Shown here one piece after another: positions 1-5,431 of a stretch of DNA of 5,431 nt. The stretch is from the NCBI GenBank assembly GCA_027029065.1, contig JALVGO010000041.1, positions 1-5,431 of the forward strand, read 5' to 3'. The translations under genes and the position numbers were made by a program. The DNA comes from Sulfurovum sp. (GTDB lineage Bacteria; Campylobacterota; Campylobacteria; Campylobacterales; Sulfurovaceae). The notes below the pieces were generated by a model, which worked only from the letters and a program-made list of their open reading frames with translations, was not told the DNA's origin and ran no database searches. The stretch's first letter is position 1; each line of letters starts with the position of its first letter.

Positions 1-1040
1 TCGCTTTGAATAAGCAGTTCTATTTTGTTCTTCGGTATCTCCTCCGTGACAATGACAGCGGAGAGGTCAAACGGAGAAAATCCAAGTCTGTTACGAAGGG
101 TAACTTCTTCTTCAAACGGTGGCGGGTTAAAAAGGAGTTCTGTAACCGAACCATACGCTGTCTGCATCAATGTGTTGTAGGTCTCAAGCGTAATGAATTT
201 GACTTCATCACGGCTCATGTGGTGTAGATCTCCTGTAGCATATTCGATTTTACCGCGTGTATATTCACCCCTGAGTGTAGAGTAGGGGAGTATGTGTGAG
301 GCAACGACCTCTTTACGGACTTTGAGCTGTGCGAACTTCAGCCGCCAGTTGAGAAAACGCTGCTTGACGATGCGGTAAGGGGTGCCTTGTTCTTCTAACT
401 CCCACCGTTTTTCATAGAGGGCAATACGTGCTTCGATGGACTCAGGCTGCACCTGTCCGGAGATGGGAACGAAAAGCTCATCGGCAAGTTTTTGCTGCTG
501 GTCACGTTGCATGGTAAGCCCAAAGAGGCAGCCGCAGTAGTCTTGTCGGTAGAGCTGATCGGCTTTGGCAAGGATATTCTGCTCCTGCGTACCGGAGGCT
601 TTACGGTAGTCGGGTGCGACAAAAGCAATGCCAAACTTTTCAGCAAGTACATCACCGGCAGTTTTGAGCTGTTTGAGCGACTTTTTGGGAGAGGTCAGCA
701 GGGTAGAGGTAAACGTTTTTTCACCTATTTGCGCCGCTTTTTGCGCACTCACTTCAAAACGCCGGTCAAAACAGACTGCACACCGAGCCCCCTTTTCGGG
801 TTCATGCTCCAGCCCTCTGACAGCCTCAAGCCACGCCTCGGTGTCATACTCCCCCTCGATCAGTTCGATACCGAGCATCTTGCAGCTTCTCTTGACATCA
901 AGCAGCCGCAGATAGTACTCTGAGTAGGGGTGGATGTTAGGATCGTAGAAAAAGCCGACCAGCTTTTCGTCCGGATAGTCCTTTTGCAGCTTTTGAAGGA
1001 AGTAGTGGCTGTCTACGGCGCAGCAGATATGCACTAACAA
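1..1040 (-). CDS. queH: Epoxyqueuosine reductase QueH, long form, C-terminus cut by window edge
   Basis: QueH reduces epoxyqueuosine in tRNA to queuosine, the last step of queuosine synthesis, and is a cobalamin-free iron-sulfur alternative to QueG. Seen: an open frame of 346 codons running off the left edge without a stop. Family signatures are the N-terminal HICC (Cys6, Cys7), YDPNIHPYSEY near 32-42, RCAVCFDRR (Cys87, Cys90), DYRKASGTQEQ near 144-154 and YRQDYCGC (Cys169, Cys171). These cysteine pairs are the expected iron/cluster ligands and redox cysteines. No ATG fits the start. TTG at 1038-1040 gives MLVHICC, which matches how the family normally begins, and AAGGGG lies 6 nt upstream; GTG at 1032-1034 is the alternative. 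The ~175 residues after Cys171 exceed the short QueH core; this charged extension has no motif I recognise. The start codon and ribosome site lie inside a perfect palindrome. lpxB lies 192 bp upstream on the same strand. Confidence 0.9.
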   Translation of the reverse strand, partial: MLVHICCAVDSHYFLQKLQKDYPDEKLVGFFYDPNIHPYSEYYLRLLDVKRSCKMLGIELIEGEYDTEAWLEAVRGLEHEPEKGARCAVCFDRRFEVSAQKAAQIGEKTFTSTLLTSPKKSLKQLKTAGDVLAEKFGIAFVAPDYRKASGTQEQNILAKADQLYRQDYCGCLFGLTMQRDQQQKLADELFVPISGQVQPESIEARIALYEKRWELEEQGTPYRIVKQRFLNWRLKFAQLKVRKEVVASHILPYSTLRGEYTRGKIEYATGDLHHMSRDEVKFITLETYNTLMQTAYGSVTELLFNPPPFEEEVTLRNRLGFSPFDLSAVIVTEEIPKNKIELLIQS

Positions 1041-1061
1041 GGGGTACCCCTTGTTAGTGCA
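1030..1061. repeat. 32-bp perfect palindrome spanning the queH ribosome site and start codon
   Basis: The half-site TGCACTAACAAGGGGT is followed directly by its exact reverse complement. Flanking bases 1029 and 1062 do not pair, so the palindrome is exactly 32 bp. As RNA it could fold to a 14-bp stem with a 4-nt loop. In the queH message one arm carries the AAGGGG ribosome site and the other the start region TTG-TTA-GTG-CA, so folding would hide both. There is no T-run after the stem on either strand (AGTGAATAG on plus, TATCTGCTG on minus), so it is not a typical intrinsic terminator. Confidence 0.9.
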
Positions 1062-1089
1062 GTGAATAGTGAATGGTGAATGGTGAATA
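1062..1089 (+). repeat. Heptanucleotide tandem repeat, four units of GTGAATR
   Basis: Four contiguous 7-bp units are seen: GTGAATA, then GTGAATG twice, then GTGAATA. The block begins one base after the 32-bp palindrome. A related four-unit block in the opposite orientation sits at 1217-1244, so the two blocks bracket the queH/lpxB spacer like inverted arms. Short heptamer arrays of this kind occur between genes in several bacterial groups; whether this one is dispersed in this genome cannot be told from one window. Confidence 0.8.
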
Positions 1090-1130
1090 GTGTCGGTATG
1101 TGTTGCTTTGCAACGCTTTTATTTTTCGGT

Positions 1131-1158
1131 TGCTCATTGCTCACTGCTCGGTTACTCA
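1131..1158 (+). repeat. Degenerate heptamer block related to TGCTCAT
   Basis: Units TGCTCAT, TGCTCAC and TGCTCGG follow each other without spacing, with a more diverged TTACTCA after them. The 7-bp period matches the blocks on either side although the unit differs, suggesting the whole spacer grew by slippage or recombination of 7-bp units. No gene overlaps it with confidence. Confidence 0.55.
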
Positions 1159-1180
1159 TTCTTCTGTTCCTCATTTCAAT

Positions 1181-1206
1181 CAATAAAAGCTTTTCGCCAG
1201 AAAAGC
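1181..1206 (-). terminator. Candidate intrinsic terminator of lpxB
   Basis: On the minus strand a 7-bp stem GCTTTTC / GAAAAGC with loop TGGC (1189-1206) is followed by TTTTATTG. It begins 27 bp past the lpxB stop, the expected place. The stem is AT-rich with only three G-C pairs, so termination may be partial and some transcripts may continue into queH, for which no convincing promoter of its own was found. Confidence 0.5.
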
Positions 1207-1216
1207 ATACCACAAC

Positions 1217-1244
1217 TCTTCACTCTTCACTATTAGCTATTCAC
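1217..1244 (-). repeat. Heptanucleotide tandem repeat overlapping the lpxB 3' end
   Basis: Read on the minus strand, four contiguous 7-bp units are GTGAATA, GCTAATA and GTGAAGA twice. The unit is the same type as at 1062-1089 but inverted. The last three sense codons of lpxB (GTG AAT AGC) and its TAA stop lie inside the block. Because 7 is not a multiple of 3, the TGA and TAG/TAA triplets in the units fall in successive frames, so the block ends reading in any frame. Confidence 0.75.
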
Positions 1245-2273
1245 TAAAATGTCCGCGACATTTTCACTGCTTCCATGCCCCAGATATGCTCTGAGCTCTG
1301 CGGCTTTGTCAGCGAATTTTTTCCGGTCGGTATTGTAGTATTCTGCAAGCAGATTGTCAACCGTGACATTTTCCTGAAGGAGTTCGTTGTGAAGTGTCGT
1401 GCCGTTGTGGTGGGTGAGGATGATGTTTGCCAGTCCTACCTGTTTGATGCCCAAAATTTTTGTGCCGATGAAGTAGTCGAGTTTCTTTGCGATGTAGGCA
1501 AGGGTAAAAGGGGTACCGATAAGAGCAGCTTCCAGTGTGGCGGTACCGGAACAAATAAACGCAAATTCTGATCTTGCCAATGCCGTATGGGTATCACGGC
1601 TGATGGTGAACATGCTGATATCACCATAGAGTGTGGCTATCTTTTCCTTAGAGAAACTTGGCGGGATGACAAGTTGTGCCTCTTTGTCGGGAAGGGCAGC
1701 TACTACCTCTTTAAATATAGGAAGCAAACGGCTGATCTCGCCGCTTCTGCTGCCTGGAAGGAAGGTGATGACACCCGGTTTGCCCTCATAGTTTATGTCG
1801 ATCTCATCAAGCAGCGGATGACCTACATACTCCGCTTTACCGCCCGGGTAGCAGGATGTCTCAAAGGGTAAAATACCCAGCAGTCTGTCGCAGTAGCGCT
1901 CCAGCTTCTCCACACGTTTGGGGCGGCTTGCCCAGACCTGAGGGAGGATGTAGTAGATGATCTCCTTGTCAGGGTAGGCGGTTTTGAGCTTCTTTGCCAG
2001 CGGCAGGTTGAAGCCTGAACCGTCCATCAGAAGCACTTTGTCAGCATCTTTGGCGAGTGCTACCATCTCATCGGCTACTTTAAAGAACCAGGGCAGTTTT
2101 TTCACCGCATCGACCACCCCCATGATCGCCATATCGCTGATGTCATACAGCGGTGTACCTGCCTCGATGCGCTTGTCGAAAATGCCGGAAAGTGTAATAT
2201 TTTCGGTGTGTTGGAGTACCTCGCGCAGATGCAGGTTAGAGGAGGGTTCCAGTGCGGAAACAAGCAGTTTCAT
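1233..2273 (-). CDS. lpxB: Lipid-A-disaccharide synthase LpxB
   Basis: LpxB is the GT19 glycosyltransferase that joins UDP-2,3-diacylglucosamine and lipid X (2,3-diacylglucosamine 1-phosphate) into the disaccharide core of lipid A at the inner face of the inner membrane. Seen in order over 346 residues: MG at 51-52, DGSGFNLPLAKKL from 84, YYILPQVWASRPKR near 107-120 (family YY-x-SP-x-VWAW type), YVGHPLLD 149-156, FLPGSRSGEI 171-180, CSGTATLEAAL 241-251 and VGLANIIL 279-286. The PGSR...EI and SGT-x-TLE motifs form the nucleotide-sugar side. The length is slightly below the usual 360-390. The N-terminal motif is ALEPSSNLHL where many LpxB have GE-x-SGD, probably a lineage trait. The ATG at 2271-2273 has AAGGA about 8 nt upstream. 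The 3' end runs into a heptamer repeat. lpxB is divergent from amrS across 118 bp. Confidence 0.95.
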   Translation of the reverse strand: MKLLVSALEPSSNLHLREVLQHTENITLSGIFDKRIEAGTPLYDISDMAIMGVVDAVKKLPWFFKVADEMVALAKDADKVLLMDGSGFNLPLAKKLKTAYPDKEIIYYILPQVWASRPKRVEKLERYCDRLLGILPFETSCYPGGKAEYVGHPLLDEIDINYEGKPGVITFLPGSRSGEISRLLPIFKEVVAALPDKEAQLVIPPSFSKEKIATLYGDISMFTISRDTHTALARSEFAFICSGTATLEAALIGTPFTLAYIAKKLDYFIGTKILGIKQVGLANIILTHHNGTTLHNELLQENVTVDNLLAEYYNTDRKKFADKAAELRAYLGHGSSENVADILVNS

Positions 2274-2310
2274 AGTGCTTCCTTAAGATCTGTAATGATG
2301 CATTTTCGAG

Positions 2311-2339
2311 AGTATACCCCAAAATTTGACAAATACAAA
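2311..2339 (-). promoter_or_regulatory. Candidate lpxB promoter
   Basis: On the minus strand a -10 candidate TATACT lies at 2311-2316. A weak -35 (TTTGTA, 2334-2339) sits 17 bp upstream. Transcription would start near 2304, leaving a leader of about 31 nt before the lpxB ATG. The weak -35 is normal for Campylobacterota. The element overlaps the -35 box of the rightward amr promoter, so the two polymerases would compete for this DNA. Confidence 0.5.
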
Positions 2340-2354
2340 GTTTAGTGATATAAT
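2326..2354 (+). promoter_or_regulatory. Consensus sigma70 promoter of the amrSBA operon
   Basis: The -35 TTGACA (2326-2331) and the -10 TATAAT (2349-2354) are both perfect and are separated by exactly 17 bp. TG at 2346-2347 supplies an extended -10. The predicted start is near 2361, about 30 nt before the amrS ATG. So complete a match is unusual for Campylobacterota, where the -35 is normally poorly conserved, and implies strong intrinsic activity. Confidence 0.85.
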
Positions 2355-2369
2355 GAAATAAAGTTTAGT
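2337..2369 (+). repeat. Direct repeat AAAGTTTAGT in the amr promoter
   Basis: The 10-mer AAAGTTTAGT occurs at 2337-2346 and again at 2360-2369, 23 bp start to start, or roughly two DNA turns. The first copy lies in the -35/-10 spacer and the second at the predicted transcription start. This would suit a regulator binding one face of the helix, but an AT-rich chance repeat is possible. Confidence 0.4.
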
Positions 2370-2378
2370 CAGTGACTA
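2366..2378. promoter_or_regulatory. Candidate operator palindrome TAGTCA-G-TGACTA
   Basis: This is a perfect 6+1+6 inverted repeat just after the predicted transcription start of the amr operon and 13 bp before the amrS ATG. Its position fits a repressor site of the MarR/HxlR dimer type. The regulator is unknown and no regulator gene lies in the window. Confidence 0.4.
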
Positions 2379-2391
2379 TAAAGGTGTAACG

Positions 2392-3402
2392 ATGACATAC
2401 CATCCTAAATTTGAATACTTTACCCCCAAAGAGAACGGAAAGATCGTCTGTAATCTCTGCCGGCACAGCTGTCAGCTCAAAGAGGGGCAGGTGGGTATCT
2501 GCGGGGTGAACCAGAATGTTGGGGGCAGACTCAAGACGCTGGTCTACGGGCATCCCATCGCCGTACATGTAGATCCGGTCGAGAAGAAACCGCTTTATCA
2601 TCTGCTGCCCAACTCGAAAGTGCTTTCGTTTGGTACGGTGGGATGCAACTTCAAGTGTCCTTTCTGCCAGAACTGGGACATCTCACAGAGCAAAGAGGTC
2701 AATGAGAACATCGAGGTCTCACCCGAGCAGATGGTACAGCTTGCCATTGAACACGGTGCGAAGTCCATCGCCTATACCTACAACGAACCGACTATCTTCT
2801 ACCCCTATGCCAAAGATATTGGGCTGATCGCCAAAACCAGAGGCATCAAGAACATCTTTGTCAGCAACGGTTTTGAGAGCAAGGAGATGATTGACGATAT
2901 GGCGACATGGGTCGATGCAGCCAATATCGATCTCAAAAGCTGGGATGACAAGTACTACAAAAAGGTGCTCAAAGGCGGGCTTGAAGAGGTGAAAGATACC
3001 CTCAGGCGTCTTGTAAAAAACGGCGTGTGGGTAGAGGTGACCACACTGCTCATTGAAGGTGAAAACGACAGTGACAAAGCGCTTGAAGAGATGGCATCTT
3101 TCATCGCCAATGATCTTGGAGTGCATGTGCCGTGGCATCTGAGTGCGTTTTACCCCAACTACAAGATGCGTGACCATCAGGCAACAGCACTGGCAACGCT
3201 GAAACGGGCAGAGGCTATTGGCAAAAAGGCAGGTTTGAAATATATCTATCTTGGCAACGTAGGGCAGGATTCACCGACACGCTGCCACCACTGCGATACC
3301 ATTCTTATTGCCCGCAACGGGTATGGACAGATAGATAACCGCATCAAAGAGGAGGGCAGCTGTCCGGTCTGCAGCAGCATCATAGAAGGAGTGTGGAGAT
3401 GA
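2392..3402 (+). CDS. amrS: AmmeMemoRadiSam system radical SAM protein AmrS
   Basis: This is a radical SAM enzyme related to pyruvate formate-lyase activating enzymes. It binds a [4Fe-4S] cluster and S-adenosylmethionine; its substrate is not established. Seen over 336 residues: an N-terminal four-cysteine segment typical of the family (Cys20, Cys23, Cys27, Cys37 in CNLCRHSCQLKEGQVGICG), the radical SAM signature C-x3-C-x2-C at Cys85, Cys89 and Cys92 (GCNFKCPFC), YTYNEPT at 128-134, a glycine-containing SNGF at 158-161 and DLKSW at 180-184. A C-terminal pair CHHC (298-301) and CPVC (324-327) looks like a zinc ribbon or an extra cluster site, followed by the usual GVW end. Length and domain order are normal. 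AAGGTG lies about 7 nt before the ATG. It is the first gene of the operon and its TGA overlaps the amrB ATG. Confidence 0.94.
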   Translation: MTYHPKFEYFTPKENGKIVCNLCRHSCQLKEGQVGICGVNQNVGGRLKTLVYGHPIAVHVDPVEKKPLYHLLPNSKVLSFGTVGCNFKCPFCQNWDISQSKEVNENIEVSPEQMVQLAIEHGAKSIAYTYNEPTIFYPYAKDIGLIAKTRGIKNIFVSNGFESKEMIDDMATWVDAANIDLKSWDDKYYKKVLKGGLEEVKDTLRRLVKNGVWVEVTTLLIEGENDSDKALEEMASFIANDLGVHVPWHLSAFYPNYKMRDHQATALATLKRAEAIGKKAGLKYIYLGNVGQDSPTRCHHCDTILIARNGYGQIDNRIKEEGSCPVCSSIIEGVWR

Positions 3403-4214
3403 GTGCAAGAGAGACAGCCGTTGCAGGACAGTTCTATCCGGCAACAGCAAATGAGATAGAGAAGATGATAGAACACTATAACAGTATATTGGATGCACAT
3501 ACCAATACCGATGCGCTTTTTTCGCTCAAGAGCCGTGCGGTAATCGTACCGCATGCGGGGTATGTCTACAGCGGTTTTACTGCCAATGTCGCTCTGCGTC
3601 TGCTCGGGATGCAGGATATCCGGCGTGTGGTGGTCATTGGTCCGAGCCACCGGGTCTACCTGGAGGGAGTCTCGGCAGCGGAGTATGACAGCTACGAGAC
3701 ACCCTTTGGTGCATTGCGGGTGGACAAAGCCCTTGTTGCAGAGCTTAAAGCGATGTATGGGGTGCACTTCTACCCCGAAGCACACCATGAGCACAGCACT
3801 GAAGTGCAGATGCCTTTTGTGAAGTACTATATGCCCGATGTAAGTGTGGTAGAGCTTGTTTACGGTGATGCTTCACCCGCAAAGATAGCCGAGATGATCG
3901 ACTACCTGCTGGACGATCCGCATACGGGAGTGGTCATCAGTACAGACTTGAGCCACTACTATGACATAGAAAAAGCCAAACGGCTTGACAGCATCTGTCT
4001 GGATGCTGTGATGAAGCTTGATGTGTCCCAACTTCATCAAGGATGTGAAGCGTGCGGGAAGATCGGTGTAGAGGCGATGCTGATCGCGGCACGGCACAAA
4101 GGGCTCAAGCCACACATTCTCGACTACCGTACCAGTGCGGATGCCAGCGGTGACAGGTCGCAAGTGGTGGGCTATACCAGTGTTGCATTTACCAAGGAGG
4201 ATGAAGATGGATAA
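3399..4214 (+). CDS. amrB: AmmeMemoRadiSam system protein B, Memo family
   Basis: This protein belongs to the Memo family, which has the fold of non-haem iron (LigB-type) dioxygenases; human MEMO1 is a homologue, and the bacterial role is unproven. Seen over 271 residues: VPHAGYVYSG at 50-59 (His52), IGPSHRVY at 80-87 (His84), EHSTEVQMPF at 131-140, STDLSHYYD at 181-189 (Asp183, His186) and EACGKIGVEAML near 217-228 (Cys219). His52, His84, His186 and Cys219 correspond to the metal/active-site set described for MEMO1, so the site looks intact. It ends DASGD...VVGYTSVAF, as is normal. The ATG at 3399 is chosen because AAGGAG ends 7 nt upstream; the in-frame GTG at 3393 sits almost on that site. 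The start forms ATGA with the amrS stop, indicating translational coupling. Confidence 0.93.
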   Translation: MSARETAVAGQFYPATANEIEKMIEHYNSILDAHTNTDALFSLKSRAVIVPHAGYVYSGFTANVALRLLGMQDIRRVVVIGPSHRVYLEGVSAAEYDSYETPFGALRVDKALVAELKAMYGVHFYPEAHHEHSTEVQMPFVKYYMPDVSVVELVYGDASPAKIAEMIDYLLDDPHTGVVISTDLSHYYDIEKAKRLDSICLDAVMKLDVSQLHQGCEACGKIGVEAMLIAARHKGLKPHILDYRTSADASGDRSQVVGYTSVAFTKEDEDG

Positions 4215-4764
4215 AAGAGAAGTACTGTTGAAGTTGGCACGCGCTGCCATTGCCGAGTCGTTCGGTATCGATTATGGGGTCGACATGGAGGCGCTGCGGC
4301 GTGCCAATCCGTGGCTTGAGGAGAAAGGGGCGGCATTTGTCACACTCAACAAGAAAAACAGCGGTGCACTCCGAGGCTGCATCGGCTCCATTGTTGCCCA
4401 CCGAAAACTCTATGATGACATTGTCAGCAATGCCAAAAGTGCGGCATTTCACGATCCGCGTTTTGTGGCACTGACACCTGAAGAGTTTAACGACATTACT
4501 ATAGAGGTCTCACTCCTGACCGACCCCAAACCGCTGCCGTACAGCTCGCCTGCGGATCTGAAGTCCAAACTCAGACCCGGCATTGACGGTGTCATTTTGA
4601 AAAAAGGGAACTATCAGGCAACCTATCTGCCGCAAGTGTGGGAACAGCTGCCGACATTTGAGAGCTTCATGGCACATCTGTGCCAGAAAGCGGGCATGTC
4701 ATCAGACTGCCTCTCTGAGCATCCTGATGTCTTTGTCTATCAGGTGGAAGAGTATCATGAGTAG
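4207..4764 (+). CDS. amrA: AmmeMemoRadiSam system protein A, AMMECR1 family
   Basis: This is an AMMECR1-domain protein whose biochemical function is unknown; the human homologue is affected in a contiguous-gene syndrome with Alport syndrome, midface hypoplasia and elliptocytosis. Seen over 185 residues: the hallmark LRGCIGS at 55-61 (Cys58), AFHDPRF at 80-86, ITIEVSLLTDPKPL at 97-110, IDGVILKKG at 126-134 and TYLPQVWEQLP at 139-149. Length and order are normal for the single-domain form. The ATG at 4207 is preferred because AAGGAGG (4194-4200) lies 6 nt upstream; the ATG at 4201 touches that site, and longer in-frame extensions to 4135 lie wholly within amrB. The start overlaps the amrB stop by 8 nt, so translation is probably coupled. 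It is the last gene of the operon. Confidence 0.93.
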   Translation: MDKREVLLKLARAAIAESFGIDYGVDMEALRRANPWLEEKGAAFVTLNKKNSGALRGCIGSIVAHRKLYDDIVSNAKSAAFHDPRFVALTPEEFNDITIEVSLLTDPKPLPYSSPADLKSKLRPGIDGVILKKGNYQATYLPQVWEQLPTFESFMAHLCQKAGMSSDCLSEHPDVFVYQVEEYHE

Positions 4765-4795
4765 AGAAGTATTGTGAATAGTATAGTAGGTAGAT

Positions 4796-4816
4796 AAAAA
4801 ACAGCTGTTAGCCTTT
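4796..4816 (-). terminator. Weak candidate terminator facing left in the convergent gap
   Basis: On the minus strand AAAGGCT-AAC-AGCT-G leads into six T (positions 4801-4796). Stem GGCT/AGCT has one G-T wobble and can lengthen by AAA/TTT across a bulged G. It would serve the small gene ending at 4922, but it is about 105 bp downstream and the stem is weak. Confidence 0.25.
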
Positions 4817-4840
4817 GGACTTTTTGAGTATTACAAGAGC

Positions 4841-4855
4841 ATCATTTTTAATGAT
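4841..4855. other. AT-rich hairpin in the amrA / small-gene convergent gap
   Basis: ATCATT, TTT and AATGAT form a 6-bp stem with a 3-nt loop, 77 bp after the amrA stop. With a single T-rich triplet after it on plus, it is only a marginal terminator for the amr operon. The rest of 4765-4921 shows no gene or stronger signal, apart from a lone GTGAATAG at 4774-4781 that resembles the heptamers near 1062. Confidence 0.25.
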
Positions 4856-4921
4856 TTGTCACTATCGGGAGTGTGAAATCTTTCCAGCTCAATTTTGCAT
4901 GGCGGACAAGGCAGACGCTTT

Positions 4922-5215
4922 TCATGCGGCATTGGAGGCGTTGTTGTAGCGGTGCCAGACCTCCCAGATCTCACCTGCCATCTGCACATAGAGCTCTTTG
5001 TCTCCCACCTCTTCTCTGCCGTACCAGCTTTGAAACTCTTCGTAGACGATATCGGCAAGCTCTTCTTTGGTATGCACCTCTTTGATGCGGGAGAGAATGG
5101 TCGCCGCTTCAAGATCATACTCGTCTGTTTCAGCCACTGCACCAATCTGCATAGGGTCGTACTTCAGAAGGATGGCACTGATATCAAGATGAAGTGCTCT
5201 GTTTTTCTTTTTCAT
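4922..5215 (-). CDS. Small acidic hypothetical protein, 97 aa
   Basis: I cannot name this family with certainty. Seen: a basic start MKKKNRALHLD, then KYDPMQIGAVAETDEYDLEA at about 18-37, then an amphipathic, Glu/Lys-rich helical stretch with EEFQSWYG near 59-66, and a helical tail rich in aromatics (GEIWEVWHRYN). The pattern '(W/Y)DP...DEYD.EA..I...I' with a later F..W(F/Y)G resembles small cytoplasmic DUF1871-like or immunity-type helical proteins, but this is recall, not a search. There is no signal peptide, membrane segment or cysteine. A strong AGGAGGG lies 8 nt before the ATG at 5213-5215; a GTG directly before it (5216-5218) could also initiate. Its stop is convergent with amrA, 157 bp away. 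The upstream neighbour on the same strand is the antiporter gene, 83 bp away with an AT-rich promoter candidate between. Confidence 0.75.
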   Translation of the reverse strand: MKKKNRALHLDISAILLKYDPMQIGAVAETDEYDLEAATILSRIKEVHTKEELADIVYEEFQSWYGREEVGDKELYVQMAGEIWEVWHRYNNASNAA

Positions 5216-5251
5216 CACAGTTTCCCTCCTTTTTTGTATGAAATATTGAAA

Positions 5252-5262
5252 AATATAGTATA
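5252..5262 (-). promoter_or_regulatory. Candidate -10 region for the small hypothetical gene
   Basis: On the minus strand TATACT (5257-5262) and overlapping TATATT (5252-5257) sit in a T-rich tract about 40 bp before the ATG. No good -35 is seen at 16-18 bp. An AT-rich upstream tract with a lone -10 is common for sigma70 promoters in Campylobacterota. Confidence 0.45.
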
Positions 5263-5298
5263 AAAAATGAAGGTATACGGATGGTTAACAGTTCTGGA

Positions 5299-5431
5299 TT
5301 AGCGTGTCAAATATCCAGCCACCAAAAACGCCAATGCTGCTAAAGTACCGCCAATGAGCGCATAGGGAAGCTGTGTACGTACGTGCTCCACATGGTCGCA
5401 GCCTGCTGCCATGGAGGAGATGATGGTGGTG
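5299..5431 (-). CDS. Na+/H+ antiporter, NhaC family, C-terminal fragment
   Basis: Only the last 43 codons are in the window; the start lies beyond the right edge. Seen: TTIISSMAAGCDHVEHVRTQLPYAL, which matches the highly conserved 'SSMASGCDH..HV.TQ.PYAL' segment near the end of NhaC-type antiporters, followed by a hydrophobic span (IGGTLAALAFLVAGYL, about residues 26-41 of the fragment) that would be the last transmembrane helix, then TR and a TAA stop at 5299-5301. Such inner-membrane proteins exchange Na+ (or organic solutes in some subfamilies) for protons or another ion. The fragment cannot tell which substrate applies. No clear terminator follows before the small gene. Confidence 0.8.
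   Translation of the reverse strand, partial: TTIISSMAAGCDHVEHVRTQLPYALIGGTLAALAFLVAGYLTR

Follow-up and report, generated by a model that had tools for sequence, protein, structure and literature searches.

An intact AmmeMemoRadiSam operon from Sulfurovum or a close relative, and the predicted pairing of its radical SAM and Memo proteins

Introduction

The AmmeMemoRadiSam (Amr) system comprises three proteins, namely a radical S-adenosylmethionine (SAM) enzyme (AmrS), a Memo family protein (AmrB) and an AMMECR1 family protein (AmrA), and here we describe the copy found in a 5,431-nucleotide (nt) stretch of DNA (contig JALVGO010000041.1, positions 1 to 5,431), which we will henceforth refer to as the window. 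AMMECR1 has a human relative, and so does Memo, namely MEMO1, a subject of cancer and metal-balance research for which we know of no AmrS partner in humans. The passages covered of the eLife 2024 study of MEMO1 (PMC11081632) give H49, H81 and C244 as its iron ligands, with H192 close to the metal and not coordinating it. In the covered passages of two further papers, AMMECR1 is found in 3.38% of 4,227 aerobic bacteria vs. 50.66% of 1,293 anaerobic ones (PMC13386939), and in 429 out of 524 archaeal genomes (PMC6393860). The literature passages covered, Burroughs et al. 2019 apart, assign no reaction to the Amr system, in agreement with an earlier note on this DNA, made from its letters, which named no firmly assigned one.

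We find that the window carries a real, intact and ordinary copy of this widespread, known and functionally unsolved system, and that joint action of the three Amr proteins, mainly of AmrS and AmrB, is well supported by natural fusions, co-occurrence and a packing prediction.

Results

A complete Amr operon with intact key residues

The three genes and their overlaps are located as follows:

2392-3402, + strand: amrS, AmmeMemoRadiSam radical SAM enzyme, 336 amino acids (aa), TIGR04337
3399-4214, + strand: amrB, Memo family, 271 aa, TIGR04336
4207-4764, + strand: amrA, AMMECR1 family, 185 aa, C58 in LRGCIG, TIGR04335
3399-3402, + strand: overlap of the amrS stop and amrB start, ATGA, 4 nt
4207-4214, + strand: overlap of amrB and amrA, ATGGATAA, 8 nt

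The head-to-tail order with 4-nt and 8-nt overlaps at 2392-4764 is thus as the earlier note had described it, and the residues it had named (AmrS C85/C89/C92, AmrB H52/H84/H186/C219 and AmrA C58 in LRGCIG) all stand at the numbers it gave. AmrS scored 370.7 bits against TIGR04337 (cut-off 220), AmrB 258.7 bits against TIGR04336 (cut-off 26) and AmrA 201.9 bits against TIGR04335 (cut-off 99). The features that define the system, i.e., a shared neighbourhood (2392-4764), the CX3CX2C motif of the SAM cluster, the Memo metal ligands and LRGCIG, are all present.

We counted residues over the relatives gathered here (nearly all from Campylobacterota), keeping only matches with 75% or more coverage of the window protein and removing identical rows. 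The SAM-cluster cysteines C85/C89/C92 of AmrS were found in 242/242 rows. AmrS has eight additional cysteines that lie outside the stretch aligned to pyruvate formate-lyase activating enzyme (PFL-AE), four of them N-terminal (C20/C23/C27 in 239/240 rows, C37 in 239/239) and four C-terminal (C298/C301 in 237/237, C324/C327 in 236/239); these probably bind a further cluster or zinc. In AmrB, H52, H84, H132, D183, H186 and C219 were present in 394/394 rows. A profile alignment, with positions counted by hand, makes H52, H84 and C219 the counterparts of the human MEMO1 iron ligands H49, H81 and C244, and it also pairs H186 with MEMO1 H192. C58 of AmrA was kept in 123/123 rows. Two further AmrB cysteines, C200 and C216, recur in almost every Campylobacterota row. 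We considered whether C216 (382/393) might belong to a general CxxC site and rejected this: being missing from Ideonella and Segatella AmrB and from several fusions, it is lineage-bound rather than system-wide.

amrS and amrB are the coupled unit

Gene order was compared in the best 80 of 146 confirmed genome stretches, all titled Campylobacterota (beyond these there were plasmid matches only). The closest genome matches were to Sulfurovum, with the AmrS of L010 being 95% identical, and the source of the window is Sulfurovum or a close relative. In 74/80 loci amrB lies immediately 3' of amrS; three of the remainder end at most 300 nt from amrS, and the last three have no adjacent amrB. With AmrB starts mapped by alignment onto residue 1 of the window AmrB, the spacing between the two genes was exactly -4 in 46/74 loci and at most 20 nt in 62/74. 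Such coupling of amrS to amrB is not due to chance.

The position of amrA is far more variable. Across the 74 loci with amrS followed by amrB (S-B loci), it was found after amrB in 9, fused to it in 4 and before amrS in 4 (17/74 in total). In 43 of the 60 informative loci it was absent from both flanks, with at least 700 nt visible on each side of these 43; in the other 14/74 the contig was too short. Since the S-B spacing is conserved while AmrA is unlinked in 43/60 loci, the coupled unit is S-B, with the full S-B-A arrangement characterising the window and its closest relatives. Neighbourhood conservation, which the earlier note had proposed as a check, is seen for amrS-amrB (74/80), with amrA unlinked in 43/60. 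The note's further suggestion that the three proteins act in fixed proportion is not supported: AmrA is fused or adjacent in only 17/74 loci and missing from both flanks in 43.

Natural fusions and predicted packing

Fusion proteins were taken from the best 120 of 7,907 matches to a B-A query and the best 120 of 7,926 matches to an S-B query. Among the 80 listed proteins longer than 400 aa there were at least 46 B-A fusions with LRGCIG and at least 33 A-B fusions, one protein fitting neither rule. The matches listed also included at least 88 full-length S-B fusions and two A-S-B triple-domain proteins, P0295 (763 aa) and P0300 (805 aa), while in genome G047 (L127) an S-B fusion has amrA directly 5' of it. 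These natural fusions strongly indicate that all three proteins act jointly, Memo being the hub.

AlphaFold2 gave a predicted template-modelling score (pTM) of 0.87 for an S-B fusion, a confident prediction that AmrS and AmrB hold a fixed packing. For an A-S-B triple fusion the pTM was 0.64 and the placement of AmrA was not confident; given these two values (0.64 vs. 0.87), AmrA seems to be held more loosely than the S-B pair. An interaction of the kind that the earlier note had wanted checked by structure prediction is predicted for S-B, with the triple fusion scoring lower. Taken together, the natural fusions and the predicted packing suggest that two or more of the Amr proteins function in one complex.

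Co-occurrence of the three families

We also recorded the three families in 150 Campylobacterota genomes (90% completeness was requested; the values are not displayed in the results). AmrS, counted only over its cut-off, was found in 37 genomes (42 had some match at 0.001), AMMECR1 in 42 and Memo in 41. All three were present in 37 genomes, AmrA and AmrB only in 4, AmrA only in 1 (G108) and none in 108. Fisher's test gave 5e-31 for AmrS vs. AmrB and 4e-36 for AmrA vs. AmrB, values that are overstated as the genomes are related. The earlier note had read the tight gene coupling as joint action in fixed proportion: fusions, co-occurrence and predicted S-B packing uphold the first half of that reading and not the second. 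The note's further chain, in which a radical SAM step could feed the Memo step with the AMMECR1 cysteine as carrier or acceptor, is conjectural; conservation of C58 (123/123) does not by itself indicate such a carrier.

The four genomes with AmrA and AmrB only bear on another explanation, namely that AmrS is a maturase which modifies AmrB or AmrA once, as activases of glycyl radical enzymes do, the mature AmrA and AmrB being the real enzyme. A glycyl radical on G258 of AmrB was one candidate, suggested by the activase-like AmrS and the near-invariant VVGY motif (G258 kept in 391/393 rows). This candidate is disfavoured: G258 is Ala in P0291 and P0292, two S-B fusions that keep AmrS, and Gly is retained in all four genomes lacking AmrS, with Ser at this position in human MEMO1; moreover, the G and Y of VVGY start a predicted strand (AlphaFold2). 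In the AmrS-lacking set (four rows only), Memo is without H129 in 3/4 and AmrA without C168 in 4/4, and C168, as read by eye, is also absent from the triple fusion P0300. As AmrA and AmrB moreover persist without AmrS, we regard the maturase explanation as unlikely.

A proposed shared-substrate model

We instead favour, at roughly even odds, an oxygen-independent S-B complex that works on one substrate with AmrA as its third partner. Family membership, operon, fusions, co-occurrence and residues are the observed grounds for this model and the S-B packing a predicted one; the shared substrate, the order of steps, the role of AmrA, and the metal and oxygen-free reaction of the window AmrB are what we infer. 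Specifically, AmrS, with its PFL-activase fold, would dock on AmrB, so that the S-B pair would be the mechanical core. AmrS would then form a 5'-deoxyadenosyl radical and abstract hydrogen from a substrate at or near the S-B interface, and the Fe(II) site of AmrB (two His, one Cys) would work on the same substrate. AmrA would act as a looser or exchangeable third partner, its LRGCIG pocket (C58) possibly serving in binding or transfer. For bacteria, a reaction free of oxygen seems the likelier option because AMMECR1 is biased towards anaerobes and the radical SAM partner is oxygen-sensitive. A protein or peptide as substrate has somewhat less than an even chance, and is made somewhat likelier by the activase-like fold of AmrS.

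Several observations weigh against the shared-substrate model. Four genomes (G011, G109, G125 and G130) retain AmrA and AmrB with no AmrS match, meaning that these two have a use without the radical step, which is thus not always needed. Among the 77 loci long enough to show it, 3 have no amrB adjoining amrS. A lone amrS is also carried by plasmids of Sinorhizobium and Methylocystis, both aerobes, although AmrB may be present on other replicons. Finally, the S-B packing was judged from pTM alone, without a non-interacting fusion as control, and the S-B fusion is nearly linker-free, which limits the possible geometries.

There are several starting points for experiment: the model makes a concrete prediction in the S-B complex, the A-S-B and S-B one-chain fusions are ready-made tools for reconstitution, and the four AmrS-lacking genomes are natural knock-outs.

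A distinct isoaspartate methyltransferase clade at Amr loci

In 26 of the 66 loci where 800 nt or more remain beyond amrB, S-B is followed on its own strand by a gene of the protein isoaspartate methyltransferase (PIMT) family (counting only genes with more than 45% identity to the L040 copy), and in L097 such a gene lies 12 nt ahead of a lone amrS. A branch with 100/99 support in a PIMT tree (48 rows) separates 32 rows from 15 housekeeping copies. The former side, which we refer to as Pcm2, holds 28 of the 29 Amr-locus rows and four second copies from unlinked places; the 29th row, from a Sinorhizobium plasmid, sits on a long branch outside the clade. As judged from this tree, Pcm2 is a second isoaspartate methyltransferase clade, apart from housekeeping PIMT. 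PIMT as such was rejected as a universal Amr partner: 144/150 genomes have a PF01135 match over the cut-off, and therefore only the Pcm2 clade is informative. A Pcm2 profile scored 278.6-356.5 bits in 8 of the 150 genomes, with the next-best match at 134.4 bits and 62 genomes without a match at 1e-30. All 8 genomes have the full Amr set (8/37 AmrS genomes vs. 0/113 others). Three of the 8 copies adjoin amrS or amrB, four lie elsewhere and one (G040) has an internal stop at a contig end. In six loci (L022, L023, L030, L031, L044 and L062) pcm2 has with it a gene of about 380 aa that reaches no family cut-off, and a 52% identical gene adjoins the unlinked pcm2 of L154.

These findings raise the alternative that Amr is a system of protein damage or modification, in which AmrS, by its radical step, and AmrB, by its Memo site, would act on a peptide and Pcm2 on an (iso)aspartyl residue of the same target. 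The same-strand position after S-B, the L097 copy and the restriction of Pcm2 to AmrS genomes are in its favour. However, pcm2 is not beside the operon in the window or its nearest relatives, 29/37 AmrS genomes are without it, 4 of the 8 copies are unlinked with one more at a contig end, and the Fisher value for Pcm2 and AmrS is too small given that the genomes share descent. We hold this alternative to be distinctly unlikely. A more elaborate version, i.e., an anaerobic protein-modifying machine in which the AmrS radical acts on a peptide or on AmrA/AmrB, the His2Cys iron of Memo performs an oxygen-free redox step and Pcm2 acts on the same target in many Campylobacterota, would be a long shot. 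Pcm2 is nonetheless a lead towards the kind of target in Campylobacterota.

Other arrangements and neighbours

In six loci, an amrS that stands alone or in tandem has a flavin-reductase-like gene 5' of it, which might supply electrons. In three loci (L101, L102 and L110) a tandem amrS pair stands behind such a gene, with amrA and amrB elsewhere in the genome. Four loci (L084, L128, L129 and L130) encode 593-aa proteins with an AmrS-like N-terminus and a weak BtuF/IsdE-like C-terminal match; the AmrS-like part of L128 scores 117.7 bits, under the cut-off, and L084 and L130 represent a single site, L130 being from Sulfurospirillum diekertiae. Genome G012 holds a second Memo copy fused to AMMECR1 (L142, 6218-7666, - strand) with a hydrophobic N-terminus resembling a signal or anchor. 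Near an unlinked amrA in L144, L145, L148, L149 and L150 there are genes that resemble, by eye, subunits of pyruvate:ferredoxin oxidoreductase. On plasmids from two phyla, PF04008 genes are found close to amrS (L086, 10161-10646, + strand; L089, 4863-5393, - strand); this adenosine-specific kinase was rejected as a partner for the window operon, since it is found in 0/150 Campylobacterota genomes. A search with amrS, rather than amrB or amrA, gave no match in phages or viral contigs.

Signals and flanks of the window operon

Two candidate signals accompany the operon:

2326-2354, + strand: sigma-70-like promoter, TTGACA-17-TATAAT with TG ahead of the second hexamer, consensus match 12/12
4194-4214, + strand: ribosome-binding site AAGGAGG of amrA within the 3' end of amrB, plus the 8-nt overlap

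The last base of AAGGAGG is 6 nt ahead of the amrA ATG. A consensus scan of 2200-4950 returned 5 promoter-like sites vs. 2.6 expected, and 2326-2354, located 5' of amrS, was the single 12/12 site; it is a putative promoter by consensus match, which is not proof. In Campylobacterota -35 boxes are often weak, and this site has a perfect sigma-70 consensus despite belonging to such a genome.

Upstream of amrS, lpxB and queH are divergent, as they also are in L001-L007 and L010. The QueH frame (3-1040, - strand) matches PF02677 over residues 1-175, continues for at least 170 residues further and exits the window. The interval between queH and lpxB (1041-1232) is non-coding and, by eye, repeat-like, with runs such as gtgaatagtgaatggtgaatggtgaatagtg. 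At the amrA end, five relatives (L002, L003, L005, L006 and L010) have a gene of 579-593 aa on the opposite strand. The window shows short frames only at 4765-5431 (compared with L010 from 12379 on), and the junction 3' of amrA therefore differs from that of close relatives.

Discussion

The nearest solved fold of AmrS is that of PFL-AE (3cb8, 3c8f; 225 residues). AmrS differs from this enzyme in scoring 45 bits against a PFLA cut-off of 231.75 and in carrying additional N- and C-terminal Cys modules. It likewise scores 49.5 bits against the YjjW activase family (cut-off 250.2) and reaches no activase-family cut-off, and the named frames of the window include no glycyl radical enzyme gene.

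Human MEMO1 (7kq8, 7l5c, 3bcz) differs from the AmrB studied here in having Ser at the G258 position, and Campylobacterota AmrB rows differ from it in their additional C200/C216. One explanation built on this relative is that AmrB chiefly handles iron or copper, with AmrS and AmrA serving its metal state. In the passages covered, H49/H81/C244 of MEMO1 bind both Fe and Cu and the protein is linked to iron homeostasis (PMC11081632), and Memo1 binds reduced copper (PMC9477392). As it leaves both a radical SAM enzyme packed on AmrB and a near all-or-none co-occurrence unexplained, we consider metal handling very improbable as the main role.

Class III extradiol dioxygenases, of which LigB is one, share with AmrB the fold and a His/His metal site (e.g., 2-aminophenol 1,6-dioxygenase, 3vsg). 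It could thus be proposed that AmrB is an oxygen-dependent dioxygenase of the extradiol type for which AmrS readies an aromatic or base substrate. However, the third ligand of these enzymes is Glu, whereas AmrB has Cys (C219, 394/394), as does MEMO1, and so departs from the two-His-one-Glu pattern. The anaerobe bias of AMMECR1 is strong (PMC13386939, passages covered), and MEMO1 showed no dioxygenase activity with the substrates tried, according to the covered part of its study (PMC11081632). A dihydroorotase-like gene does lie 5' of S-B in about 20 loci (some of these 20 are duplicates, and five are titled Nautiliaceae), scoring 217 bits to NF006268 against a cut-off of 499, with eleven loci (L081-L086, L088, L089 and L128-L130) set aside ahead of the count; the window lacks this gene, whose position may reflect mere synteny within a few lineages. 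A dioxygenase role is accordingly quite improbable, and the oxygen-independent S-B complex on one substrate is the reading that we retain.

The archaeal AMMECR1 structures (1vaj, 1wsc, 1zq7) belong to the same family as AmrA; deposited as hypothetical proteins, they are functionally uninformative. The closest match of all is the AmmeMemoRadiSam system itself (TIGR04335/TIGR04336/TIGR04337), from which the window shows no essential difference: all three genes are adjacent, over the curated cut-offs and intact in their key residues, and S-B-A with an unfused AmrA is one among the several arrangements in which this system is found.
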